From NCBI GenBank assembly GCA_022486935.1, contig JAKVJO010000014.1, positions 1 to 33,869 of the forward strand: 33,869 nucleotides of DNA. Reading direction: 5' to 3'. The translations under genes were made by a program, and so were the position numbers. Positions 16,985-22,808 of this stretch are shown here, one piece after another. This stretch comes from Solobacterium sp. Lineage in GTDB: Bacteria; Bacillota_I; Bacilli_A; Erysipelotrichales; Erysipelotrichaceae. Every line of letters starts with the position of its first letter. The stretch's first letter is position 1. The notes below the pieces were generated by a model that made no database searches, had not been told where the DNA came from, and worked only from the letters and a program-made list of their open reading frames with translations.

Positions 16985-17012
16985 TTGACAAATAAACTTA
17001 AGCACCTAAAAT
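16985..17012 (+). promoter_or_regulatory. Sigma-A type promoter for the MalY/PatB-like gene
   Basis: TTGACA - 16 nt - TAAAAT. Confidence 0.6.
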
Positions 17013-17068: not shown

Positions 17069-18262
17069 ATGGATATGAGTATCAATTTTGACCGTCATAT
17101 CGACCGTAAATCAACCAGTGATCTGAAGTGGCATACAAGTCTTGTCAAAGGATATCTGAACGTCGATATCAGTGAAGACATGATTCCGATGTGGCTCGCA
17201 GATACGGACTTTGCCTGTGCACCGTGTATCCAGAAGGCACTGCACGATCGTGTCGACAAGGAAATCTATGGCTACTGCGCACCGATGAAGCCATTCTATG
17301 ATGCGGTCTGCTGGTGGCAGAAAGAACGCTTTGGTGTTGAGACAGATCCATCCTGGATCACCATGTGCCCTACCGTGGTATCTTCCATCAATGTGGCAAT
17401 CCGTGCCTTTACCAACGAAGGCGATGGCGTCATCATCCAGCAGCCGGTATATGATCCATTTGCGACAATTGTGAAGCGCACAAAACGCAGGGTTGTCGAC
17501 AACGGACTGAAACTGGAGAATGGCAGATATGTCATGGATTATGAACTGCTCGAACAGCAGGCATCTGATCCGAACACCAAAATGATTGTCCTGTGCAGCC
17601 CGCACAATCCGGTGGGCCGGGTATGGGAGAAAGAAGAACTGAAGCGTCTCTGTGAGATCTGTGTACGCAACCACGTACTAATTGTCTCAGATGAGATTCA
17701 CGCAGATATTGTCTATGAAGGCCATGTACATACTTCCATTCTGAATGTTGATCCGGCTTACCGTGATCAGATGATCCTCTTGTCTGCACCGGGCAAGACG
17801 TTCAACATCCCGGGACTGAAGACCGGCTATGCCATCATTCCAGACAAAGATCTGCACCATGCATTCAATGAGACACAGCTGGATATGTCACTGGATGTGC
17901 GCAATACATTCGCACTGGAAGGACTGCAGGCAGCCTATTCACCGGATGGTGAAGCCTGGATGAAAGAAGAACTGGCATATCTTCAGCACAATGTGGAAGT
18001 GATCAAAAACTTTCTGAAGGACGAGATGCCGGAAGTGACCATGATTGAACCGGAAGGGACATTCCTCTGCTGGCTGGATTTCAAGAAACTTGGTTACAGC
18101 GATCAGGAACTGATGAAGCGGATCATTATCGATGCGGCAGTGGTATGTGTACCTGGTCCCTGGTTTGGTAATGGCGGTCAGCAGCACCTCCGTCTCAATA
18201 TCGGAGTGCCGACAGATCTTCTATTGGAAGCGCTGAATCGGATCAAAACAGCAATCCAGTAA
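17069..18262 (+). CDS. MalY/PatB family PLP-dependent aminotransferase / cystathionine beta-lyase (C-S lyase)
   Basis: 397 aa; MIPMWLADTDFACAPCIQKAL, VLCSPHNPVGRVW, VSDEIHADIVYEGH, PLP Lys motif LSAPGKTFNIPGLKTGYAI. A start six nt downstream is also possible. Confidence 0.92.
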   Translation: MDMSINFDRHIDRKSTSDLKWHTSLVKGYLNVDISEDMIPMWLADTDFACAPCIQKALHDRVDKEIYGYCAPMKPFYDAVCWWQKERFGVETDPSWITMCPTVVSSINVAIRAFTNEGDGVIIQQPVYDPFATIVKRTKRRVVDNGLKLENGRYVMDYELLEQQASDPNTKMIVLCSPHNPVGRVWEKEELKRLCEICVRNHVLIVSDEIHADIVYEGHVHTSILNVDPAYRDQMILLSAPGKTFNIPGLKTGYAIIPDKDLHHAFNETQLDMSLDVRNTFALEGLQAAYSPDGEAWMKEELAYLQHNVEVIKNFLKDEMPEVTMIEPEGTFLCWLDFKKLGYSDQELMKRIIIDAAVVCVPGPWFGNGGQQHLRLNIGVPTDLLLEALNRIKTAIQ

Positions 18263-18290
18263 TTGACATACATGCACCAGGGGATATAAT
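18263..18290 (+). promoter_or_regulatory. Strong sigma-A type promoter for the C26/APC/DUF5058/M19 operon
   Basis: Perfect TTGACA, 16-nt spacer, perfect TATAAT; the -35 starts immediately after the MalY/PatB stop codon. Confidence 0.8.
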
Positions 18291-18328
18291 TTTCACAATT
18301 TATAATCTGGCAAAGGAAGATTGTCATT

Positions 18329-19048
18329 ATGAAACCTAAGATAGGCCTGATCGATCAGGGGACAGATTCATTGCTCAGAAGATACATGCGCTATCGTTAT
18401 CAGTATGCATTGAAGAAAGCCGGAGCTGATTTCATCATGCTCAAAGCAGTTGAAACAGAAGACGAAGCACTTGCGAATCTGAAGGAATGCTGCGGACTGG
18501 TGATTCCCGGCGGGCCGGATATCAACCCCGAACTGTATGGAGAACAGCCAAAGGAATCAAGCCATGTCAGTGCACCGATCCGTGATATCTCTGATCCGCT
18601 GTATCTCAAGGCGGCACTGTCATTGAAGCTTCCGATCCTTGGAATCTGCCGCGGCTGCCAGCTGCTCAATGTGTATTACGGAGGAACGCTGTATCAGGAT
18701 ATTCTGCAAGACGCCAAAGGACATCATCTGACACATATGCAGCCGAAGGGATTCCGGAAGAAAGTACATCAGGTCAGTGTCAAACCGGACACCCTGCTGT
18801 ATCGACTTGCCGGAAGGTCCATGATCGGTGTCAATACAATGCACCATCAGGGAATCCATGAAGTCGGCAAAGGACTGACCGTATCCGGAATCAGTGAAGA
18901 CGGAATCGTTGAGGGAATTGAAGTTCCGGGCAGTGAATTCATCCTTGGTGTGCAGTGGCATCCGGAGCATCTGACACCGAAAGACGAAGTATCAAAGCAG
19001 CTGTTTGCAGGATTTGTAACAGAGTGCGAAAGGGGTGCGGCAAAATGA
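18329..19048 (+). CDS. Gamma-glutamyl hydrolase-type class I glutamine amidotransferase-like protein (peptidase C26)
   Basis: 239 aa; VIPGGPDINPELYGE, nucleophile motif LGICRGCQLLNVYYGGTLYQD, catalytic GVQWHPEHL. Confidence 0.92.
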   Translation: MKPKIGLIDQGTDSLLRRYMRYRYQYALKKAGADFIMLKAVETEDEALANLKECCGLVIPGGPDINPELYGEQPKESSHVSAPIRDISDPLYLKAALSLKLPILGICRGCQLLNVYYGGTLYQDILQDAKGHHLTHMQPKGFRKKVHQVSVKPDTLLYRLAGRSMIGVNTMHHQGIHEVGKGLTVSGISEDGIVEGIEVPGSEFILGVQWHPEHLTPKDEVSKQLFAGFVTECERGAAK

Positions 19049-20421
19049 AGGGTAAATCAGGAAAGCAATTGGGCGTAGGGGATCTGATTCCATTTGCGAT
19101 CGGCAACTGTGTCGGCGCAGGCATCTTTGTCTATATGGGCCTTGGTGTCAAATACACCGGGCGCTCACTTCCATTGGCACTGGTACTGGCCAATGTCGTC
19201 ATGCTGTTTGCATATGCATACAACACGCTGATGGCAGGAACGTTTGCACTGAGCGGCGGTAAGTACGCCCAGGGTGCGGTGCTGCAGCCGCCGGTGATTG
19301 CCGGTGTGTATGCCATCATGAATCTCATCAAGAGTCTGGCCATTGCCGGATATGCCATTTCTGTTGTGAATTATGCATCGTATGTATTCCCGGGAATTAC
19401 ACCTTATACCAAGTTGATTGCCATCGGAATACAAACGCTGTTCTTTGCGCTGACCTTCAAAGGCACCAAGCTGATGTCCAAGATCAACATCATCATGGTT
19501 GGCATCCTGATGGTGGCGCTGTGCATCTTCATTGCCGTTGGTCTGCCGCAGGTAGATTTCAGTTCACTGTCACTCACCAGACCGGATTCATTCTCCGGCG
19601 GTGTCATGGGATTCCTCAGTGCAATCGCTGTCATGGGCTTTGCCTGTGAAGGAAGCACCATCATTGTTTCCTATGCGTCAGAGACCAAAAAGCCAACCAG
19701 GACAATTCCGATTGCCATTCTGATCAGCACAGCCATCATCGCTGTTATCTACTTCCTGATGTCTCTGGTCGCTGTCGGTGTTCTGCCGATTGAAGAGATT
19801 GCCGGTCAGAGCCTTGCAGTCGTCGCAAAGGAAATCTTCAGTTATCCGGTATTTGCAATCTTCATTATCTGCGGTGCATGTTTCGCCATTGCAACATCAC
19901 TGTTTGGACTGATCGCTTCACTGAAATATCCGATTCTTTCCACAGTAGAAGATGGCTGGCTGCCGGAAGTGGTTGGCAGTAAGACCAAGGATGGATATCC
20001 ATGGTTCATCATGCTGGTCATGTATATCGTTGCGGTTGTCCCGATCATCACTGACATGAGTCTCAACCAGATCGCATCCTATCTGCAGATTCCGTTTATG
20101 ATTCTCTGCATTCTGAATAACGTTCTCTTCCTGCAGATTCCAAAGAAGTATCCGGAAGCCTGGAAAAAGAGCTTCTTCCACATGCCGATGCCGTGTCTTT
20201 ATATCGTGATCGGTCTCTCCCTGCTCTGCGACGCACTGGTTGCGTTTGCACTGTTCTCTACCATTGAAGCAGGTGATCAGATCATCATTGTAGTAATGGT
20301 GCTTGTCATATTTGCCTACAGTTATTTCCGCTACAAGTCAGGTAAGGTAACAATGAAGTCCCTGGAAGAAGCCCGTCGTCAGGCACTGGACGAAATCCAG
20401 GAAACTTCTCAAGAGGGCTGA
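19045..20421 (+). CDS. APC superfamily amino acid permease
   Basis: Start MKGKSGKQLGVGDLIPFAIGNCVGAGIFVYMG; about 12 hydrophobic segments; ATGA overlap with the upstream gene supports this start over the 18955 ORF start. Confidence 0.9.
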   Translation: MKGKSGKQLGVGDLIPFAIGNCVGAGIFVYMGLGVKYTGRSLPLALVLANVVMLFAYAYNTLMAGTFALSGGKYAQGAVLQPPVIAGVYAIMNLIKSLAIAGYAISVVNYASYVFPGITPYTKLIAIGIQTLFFALTFKGTKLMSKINIIMVGILMVALCIFIAVGLPQVDFSSLSLTRPDSFSGGVMGFLSAIAVMGFACEGSTIIVSYASETKKPTRTIPIAILISTAIIAVIYFLMSLVAVGVLPIEEIAGQSLAVVAKEIFSYPVFAIFIICGACFAIATSLFGLIASLKYPILSTVEDGWLPEVVGSKTKDGYPWFIMLVMYIVAVVPIITDMSLNQIASYLQIPFMILCILNNVLFLQIPKKYPEAWKKSFFHMPMPCLYIVIGLSLLCDALVAFALFSTIEAGDQIIIVVMVLVIFAYSYFRYKSGKVTMKSLEEARRQALDEIQETSQEG

Positions 20422-20457
20422 CAGTCACCAGACCAGGTGAGAAGGAGAATTTCAAAA

Positions 20458-21186
20458 ATGAATGATGCATTGCAGCTGGCCAACAGTCCAATCATGTGGT
20501 TCTTTGCCCTGCTGATCGTGGGAGCGGCGATTACTGAAGCCGTGCTCATCTTCAACCTCGCAAGGAAGTACATCCATCAGACAAACCTGCTGACCAGAGA
20601 AGAGACCATGACCTGCCTCAAGACAGGCGGCGTGGTATCTGTAGGACCTGCCCTATCTATCTTCGTCATCGCCCTCAGCATGATCTCCATGCTGGGTGCA
20701 CCATTCACACTCATGCGTATTGGCATGATCGGTTCTGCAAGTACAGAACTGACTGCAGCCGGTATCGGTGCAGAAGCTGCCGGTGTCAGTCTTGGCATGG
20801 AGCCGCTGACCGGAACAGCCTTCACTGCTGCCCTGTGGACCTGTGCATTTATGAGCTGCGGCTATCTGATCTTTGTGCCATTGGTTACCCGCGGTATCGG
20901 CAAAGCACTCAACCGTGTCATTGTACCGGCAGAAGGGAAAAAGCAGTCCTGGCTTGCATGGGGACTGAGTGCACTTCTTCCATTTCTGATCTTCGTTGCA
21001 TTATCCTACATCCAGGTATCCAAGAGTATGATCCATCTGATCAGCTTGCTGATTGCTGCAGTGTTGATGATCCTGCTGAATGTCCTTGCCGGGAAGCTGG
21101 ATAAGAAGTGGCTGCGTCAGTGGGCAATGTGCTTCTCGGTGCTTGGCGGAATTGTTGTCGGCGGCGTGCTGAACGTGCTGCTGTAG
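20458..21186 (+). CDS. DUF5058-like polytopic membrane protein (function unknown)
   Basis: Start MNDALQLANSPIMWFFALLIVG after AGAAGGAG; TGGVVSVGPALSIFVIALSMISMLGAPFTLMRIGMIGSASTELTAAGIGAEAAG. Family assignment is from memory. Confidence 0.7.
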   Translation: MNDALQLANSPIMWFFALLIVGAAITEAVLIFNLARKYIHQTNLLTREETMTCLKTGGVVSVGPALSIFVIALSMISMLGAPFTLMRIGMIGSASTELTAAGIGAEAAGVSLGMEPLTGTAFTAALWTCAFMSCGYLIFVPLVTRGIGKALNRVIVPAEGKKQSWLAWGLSALLPFLIFVALSYIQVSKSMIHLISLLIAAVLMILLNVLAGKLDKKWLRQWAMCFSVLGGIVVGGVLNVLL

Positions 21187-21199
21187 GAGGGATAATACA

Positions 21200-21754
21200 A
21201 TGAGTGAACAGAATCAGACTGCCGTAAACGCAGAAGAACTCTACGAGAAACAATACATCCCGAAGGTCCATCGCATTGGAACTGCAAGCATGCTGCTGAT
21301 CCTGGTACTGAGTTTCGTGCCGGCAGTATACTTCTCCTTCTTCAAGGGATTGAATCCCGGTATGCAGGTCATTGCCAAAGCGGCCGCTACCATGATCGGC
21401 CTGGAAATCTTTACCTGGATCCTGGAGCCGACACTGTACTTCCCGATGCTCGGAATCACCGGTTCCTATATCAGCTTTGTTGCCGGCAATATTACCAACA
21501 TGCGTGTGCCCGCCGCAACCGCTGCCCAGACGGCAGTTGATGCCAAGGTCGGAACACACAAGGCAGAATTCGCCGGTGTACTGGGAATCATCTCATCTGT
21601 TGTTGTGAACTTTATTGTGCTGATCATTGTCGTTGCCTTCGGAAGTCTGATTATCTCCGTTCTTCCCCAGGCAATTACGGACGCACTGAATTATGCACTG
21701 CCAAGCGTTTATGGCGCGTTGCTGGTGACTTTTATCGTAAGACTCAAGAGGTGA
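21200..21754 (+). CDS. Small polytopic membrane protein, probable partner of the DUF5058-like protein (function unknown)
   Basis: 184 aa, about 4-5 hydrophobic segments, motif GITGSYISFVAGNITNMRVPAATAAQTA; tightly spaced between the DUF5058-like and dipeptidase genes. Confidence 0.75.
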   Translation: MSEQNQTAVNAEELYEKQYIPKVHRIGTASMLLILVLSFVPAVYFSFFKGLNPGMQVIAKAAATMIGLEIFTWILEPTLYFPMLGITGSYISFVAGNITNMRVPAATAAQTAVDAKVGTHKAEFAGVLGIISSVVVNFIVLIIVVAFGSLIISVLPQAITDALNYALPSVYGALLVTFIVRLKR

Positions 21755-21758
21755 GCGT

Positions 21759-22756
21759 ATGACACCGTATGTCGACATGCACTGCGATACCCTGATGCAG
21801 GCATGGCTGAAACACAAGAAAGATATTGATCACTTCCCCAAAGCAATGGTAGATGTGGAACGTCTTGAACAGGGGAATTCACTGGCCCAGTTCTTTGCGG
21901 TCTTCATGCCGCCGGTCACACTGAAAAAATACATGGGACCGTTCTTCCCAAAAGATGACGTCTACATTGATAAACTGCTGAAGATCTTTGAGACAACCAT
22001 GCAGGAACATTCAGATACAATCGCTCCATGCCGTACATATTCAGAACTGGAAAGCAATCGCAGTGCCAAACGCATTTCTGCCATTCTGACATTGGAAGAC
22101 GGCCGGGCAGTTGATTCAAAGATGGAAAAACTGGATGACTACTTCAACCGGGGAATCAGACTGATCTCACTGACCTGGAATCAGCCGAACTGTTTTGGCA
22201 ATCCAAACTCCTCTGATCCTGAACTGATGCAGAAGGGTCTGACTGAGTTTGGCAAAGATGCTGTAAAGCATATGCAGGAACTCGGCATGCTGGTAGATGT
22301 ATCACATCTGTCAGATGGCGGATTCAATGATGTGGCAGAACTGTGCAGCGGACCATTTGTCGCTTCGCACTCCAACTGCCGGGCATTAAGCTTCCATTCC
22401 CGGAATATGACAGATGACATGATCCGTACGCTGGCATCTCATGGCGGAGTCATGGGCGTCAACTTCGGACCGCAGTTTCTGACTGATGATCCTAAATCAA
22501 AGGAAAGCACAATCCCGCTGATTGCTGCTCAGCTGCGACACATGATTGATGTGGGCGGTGTAGAGTGGGCGGTGTAGAGTGTGCGGCAATCGGTACAGAC
22601 TTTGATGGAATCAGCGGCAATCTTCAGATCGCATCTCCAAACGATATGCCCAAGCTGTTTGAATCACTGGCAGTCAGTGGATTCACTGCAGATGAGATTG
22701 AGCATATTGCCTGGAAGAATACCTGCAGGGTCATCAAAGACGTATTTCCAGAATAA
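21759..22756 (+). pseudogene. M19 membrane-type dipeptidase (renal dipeptidase family), frameshifted by a 14-bp tandem duplication
   Basis: ORF 21759-22577 (MTPYVDMHCDTLMQAW..., ILTLEDGRAV, FVASHSNCRAL, GGVMGVNFGPQFL) stops at 22575-22577 right after the duplication; ORF 22565-22756 continues the family (GGVECAAIGTDFDGISG...). Removing one 14-bp copy restores one frame. Confidence 0.88.
22553..22580 (+). repeat. Exact 14-bp tandem direct duplication (GGGCGGTGTAGAGT x2) inside the dipeptidase gene
   Basis: Read directly: GTGGGCGGTGTAGAGTGGGCGGTGTAGAGTGTGCGG. Confidence 0.98.
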
Positions 22757-22784
22757 ATAGATATTGCCTGTACAGGTATGAGAG

Positions 22785-22808
22785 GGCTGTTCTTCGGAAC
22801 AGCCTTTT
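22785..22808 (+). terminator. Terminator of the C26/APC/DUF5058/M19 operon
   Basis: GGCTGTTC-TTCG-GAACAGCC followed by TTTT; UUCG tetraloop. Confidence 0.9.

Follow-up and report, generated by a model that had tools for sequence, protein, structure and literature searches.

The M19 dipeptidase gene at positions 21759-22757 contains an exact tandem duplication of 14 bp, at which its reading frame breaks. The question raised by this locus is whether the break reflects a true loss of the gene, a reversible switch, a split that the cell still uses or an error of the assembly. The window, that is, the whole stretch of DNA analysed (33,869 nucleotides), corresponds to positions 1-33869 of contig C14, part of a draft assembly of 80 contigs which amounts to 1.73 Mb and is 62% complete.

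The unit GTGGGCGGTGTAGA is found twice, exactly and in tandem, at 22551-22578. Sequence inspection and repeat search placed the first copy at 22551-22564 and the second at 22565-22578, the latter followed by GTG at 22579-22581 (all + strand). The earlier note had located the duplication at 22553-22580, which is the same repeat in another register. The exact run of period 14 extends over 31 bp (22551-22581), and 3′ of it the first eight bases of the unit recur as a near copy, with GTGTGCGG instead of GTGGGCGG. TRF assigned 2.6 copies to this 14-bp repeat, with the top score in the window. Among 100 order-3 Markov simulations of the window, none gave an exact tandem duplication whose unit was 14 bp or longer, and thus the duplication is not due to chance. 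Since the run length equals 2 × 14 + 3, the duplicated unit is bounded by a shared 3-bp microhomology, GTG. The exact direct copy and the shared GTG place the lesion among the microhomology-bounded tandem duplications that are typical of slippage, and they support the single slippage-type event proposed for this site.

The upstream frame (21759-22577, + strand, 272 codons) stops at TAG 22575-22577, after ...MIDVGGVEWAV, exactly as had been read from the letters alone, and the M19 match resumes in the −1 frame. In detail, the Pfam match covers profile positions of about 6-264 in the first frame and then 258-318 (of 319) in the −1 frame. Both parts exceed the PF01244 cut-off of 26 bits, with 215.8 bits for the N-terminal part (E=1.1e-63) and 49.9 bits for the C-terminal part (E=3.3e-13), and so the assignment of the gene to the M19 dipeptidases stands. 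The out-of-frame part (22556-22756, + strand) encodes 66 amino acids and a stop. With one copy deleted the gene reads through as ...MIDVGGVECAAIGTDFDG, which follows directly from the sequence.

The N-terminal part includes the motifs of the metal-site region, namely DMHCD at 6, LEDG at 112, SHSN at 203 and FHSRN at 212; the HxD, the Glu and the two His motifs are presumably the metal ligands. The GTDFDG motif, whose Asp we take to act in catalysis, is encoded within the last 66 or so codons and is therefore out of frame. The first Asp of this motif is invariant in all full-length relatives (78 of 78, with lengths of 307-349 aa); in 3id7, a bacterial renal-dipeptidase homologue, it aligns with the D of GGDYDG. 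The frameshift sits just before this conserved motif, in agreement with its reported position near the active-site region. With GTDFDG out of frame, this is a broken M19 gene and not an intact member of Peptidase M19. No further M19 gene was found in the assembly, which is 62% complete.

Both parts might still be used, either by ribosomal frameshifting or by a restart followed by complementation of the two fragments. A GTG codon at 22565 does open the downstream frame just before the upstream stop. However, no in-frame slippery heptamer of the form XXXYYYZ was found in the overlap, as would be expected for programmed −1 frameshifting, and this makes recoding unlikely. The split is also unique to this genome and its form is seen in no relative. 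Recoding and restart were thus rejected as scarcely credible.

The relatives of the gene indicate which state came first. In all 105 related loci that carry both halves of the gene, these lie in a single frame (105/105), and only the copy of the window is shifted. The junction in the aligned relatives has one copy of the unit, with conserved spacing. In the search of the family, 195 out of 273 genomes gave an M19 match, and the matches listed are long open frames without stops. A same-species or close M19 orthologue was not found among 70 genomes of the genus and 273 of the family, the best match being ~50% identical. Judging from these single-frame, one-copy relatives, the one-copy state is ancestral, as the earlier note had assumed, and the duplication is derived and seen in this assembly only. 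Orthologues had also been suggested as a means of finding an allele with two copies fixed among relatives; none of the relatives examined has the repeat, that is, the two-copy allele is not common to them.

Apart from the duplication the gene is intact, and the claim that it shows no other decay was confirmed. All 12 C-terminal columns that are conserved in >85% of the relatives are kept (12/12), and the idC-idN value of the gene (−0.038) is within the range of the relatives (mean −0.022, sd 0.026). A gene intact elsewhere, with downstream conservation as in its relatives, is an indication that the lesion is either recent or artefactual. Recent pseudogenization and assembly error are the two live explanations of the duplication.

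In the case of an assembly error, the real genome would have one copy, and the second would come from joined contig ends or strain variants whose overlap was not collapsed. A draft of 80 contigs and 62% completeness makes a local error of this kind a serious rival. The single copy in all relatives and the full conservation of the remaining gene are also what an error would leave behind, and many reported bacterial pseudogenes are in fact assembly errors (PMC11017572). On the other hand, ordinary short reads are longer than the repeat run of 31 bp and ought to have resolved it.

The genome at large, sampled as stretches that sum to 1.17 Mb, also speaks against an error, as the sampled sequence has no Ns. 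The M19 gene was the sole split gene in the 218 kb of it that had homologues in the relatives retrieved; it was recovered by 91 queries and served as the positive control of the split-gene test. The zero splits of a narrower run are explained by its queries, which came from two genomes only and covered 154 kb. Across the whole 1.17 Mb, no exact tandem duplication with a unit of 10 bp or more, other than that in M19, was seen to split a gene; the remaining exact tandem repeats of this size class were in frame or at sites without an evident gene. With no other split gene in the 218 kb and no other frame-breaking repeat seen in the 1.17 Mb, the assembly is not generally frame-broken, and general frame decay was rejected. 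A chimeric contig was considered as well and set aside: the composition of the window is the most typical among the 61 sampled pieces, and the Tex gene of the contig matches the genus. An error confined to this junction is the minority explanation, distinctly less probable than a real mutation.

Among the repeats of the sampled genome, an exact 28-bp tandem repeat was observed on contig C8 (L165, 18927-18983), with an additional near copy just downstream. Its unit, GTATGCCCCATGTATATGGGGGTGAACC, includes a near-palindrome and the site has no evident long gene.

The reading that we favour, and hold to be rather probable, is an ordinary recent loss-of-function frameshift allele of the strain or population, and on the evidence above the duplication allele seems to be real. 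Its source would be slippage during replication or a comparable event at a microhomology. The nascent strand would have re-annealed 14 bp back at GTG and thus produced a single recent tandem duplication; we infer this from the sequence, and a re-pairing over three bases is what is expected of a slipped strand. After the shift of frame, translation would end at codon 272 instead of running on to about codon 327, with loss of the C-terminal end that holds the invariant GTDFDG. The truncated dipeptidase would very probably be inactive. Being exact and in tandem, the repeat might, like any other of this type, be lost again at a low rate, but no sign was seen of its being kept as a switch. The mutation per se is of little weight, since short tandem duplications commonly break genes.

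The neighbourhood of the gene is the more interesting lead. Upstream of M19, there are genes for a MarR regulator, a C-S lyase, a C26 peptidase, an amino acid permease, a DUF5058 protein and a small membrane protein. The C-S lyase gene (17069-18262) is of the PatB family (NCBIfam TIGR04350, 419.8 bits, cut-off 340). It is followed by the genes of a gamma-glutamyl hydrolase-type C26 peptidase (18329-19048; PF07722, E=1.3e-56), of the permease (18955-20421, with the true start probably further in; PF13520, E=6.4e-41) and of the DUF5058 membrane protein (20437-21186; PF16481, E=6.5e-44). The small membrane protein gene (21200-21754) is without a Pfam family and recurs beside DUF5058 and M19. Before the C26 gene run, a putative sigma-70-type promoter matches the consensus perfectly (TTGACA-16-TATAAT, 12/12, 18263-18290), and a near-perfect match (11/12) is located at 16985-17012, before the C-S lyase gene. 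A hairpin with a short T-rich tail at 22781-22808 (fold −17.9 kcal/mol, z=−6.0) is a likely intrinsic terminator, which the terminator scan omitted because its T-run rule was missed. The genes from the C-S lyase to M19, the perfect promoter match and the hairpin are on the + strand. The likely terminator would make M19 the last gene of the operon, and its loss should for this reason be without effect on the upstream genes.

The DUF5058, small membrane protein and M19 genes are found together in at least 10 of 80 distant loci, and at least five of these also have a C-S lyase; the flanks of the distant loci span at most 4 kb, so both counts are lower bounds. The loci with DUF5058 and the small membrane protein near M19 (L033, L034, L041, L043, L047, L051, L058, L068, L098 and L099) belong to distant Bacillota, including Lachnospiraceae, Oscillospiraceae, Solobacterium and others. 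The two membrane proteins are candidates for a two-part transporter of peptides or amino acids. In the literature search, no paper naming DUF5058 was found. From the genes that recur around it, cysteine-containing peptides or conjugates are suggested as the substrate class of this uncharacterized protein and its small partner.

The origin of the operon may be a horizontal one. The run of C-S lyase, C26, permease, DUF5058, membrane protein and M19 genes (17069-22757) is patchily distributed within the genus. The member of the genus whose Tex protein is closest (89% identical) carries an M19 that is just 47% identical and no DUF5058 match, and the best DUF5058 within the genus is 38% identical. 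By comparison, the DUF5058 and the small partner of the window share 67% and 70% identity, respectively, with their counterparts in a draft genome from the Lachnospiraceae. This contrast makes a horizontal acquisition possible.

That the operon serves to take up and degrade cysteinyl peptides or conjugates is a working hypothesis only, drawn from the gene content. The breakdown of Cys-Gly conjugates in Staphylococcus hominis proceeds by a dipeptidase and then a PatB-type C-S lyase (PMC11742315), and the operon would follow the same logic of dipeptidase plus PatB-type lyase. The dipeptidase of S. hominis is PepV, an M20 enzyme, whereas that of the window is an M19. Within the M19/renal dipeptidase family (PDB 3id7, 3neh and 1itq), the likeness is that of a sequence family, and the conserved C-terminal columns are all present in the DNA. 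The difference from these enzymes is that the open frame of the window is without the C-terminal GTDFDG part.

The earlier note had also raised an on/off switch, in which reversible gain and loss of the 14-bp unit would turn the dipeptidase off and on. An exact non-triplet tandem repeat in a coding frame is reversible in principle. However, the site shows no variable-copy repeat tract, with a single copy in all relatives examined. In addition, two copies are the minimal number, the product is not a surface structure but a metabolic enzyme, and the one assembly gives no sign of mixed alleles. Phase variation is thus not supported and is improbable. Still less likely is the wider claim of a population-level switching, through this reversible duplication, of the dipeptidase step in a peptide-sulfur catabolic operon of an Erysipelotrichaceae-like bacterium.

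Slipped-strand contingency loci, such as the homopolymer of kpsC in the E. coli K96 capsule (PMC13410964), resemble the M19 lesion in that slippage within simple sequence repeats changes the frame. They are homopolymers or many-copy short repeats, whereas the M19 site has two copies of a 14-mer and no conserved repeat in its relatives. The closest precedent is in pneumococcal capsule genes, where spontaneous duplications are reported to drive phase variation (Waite et al. 2001, 2003; cited in PMC8406281 and PMC4022640). The type 3 capsule locus, cap8E/wchA and tts share with the M19 lesion a direct duplication internal to the frame that inactivates one enzyme, with no pre-existing repeat array. 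Phase variation is reported for the capsule genes, whereas the M19 case is a peptidase gene in one assembly with no sign of mixed alleles. If both copy numbers were present in the population, duplication-based switching would reach beyond capsule genes, to an enzyme of metabolism in an uncultured bacterium.
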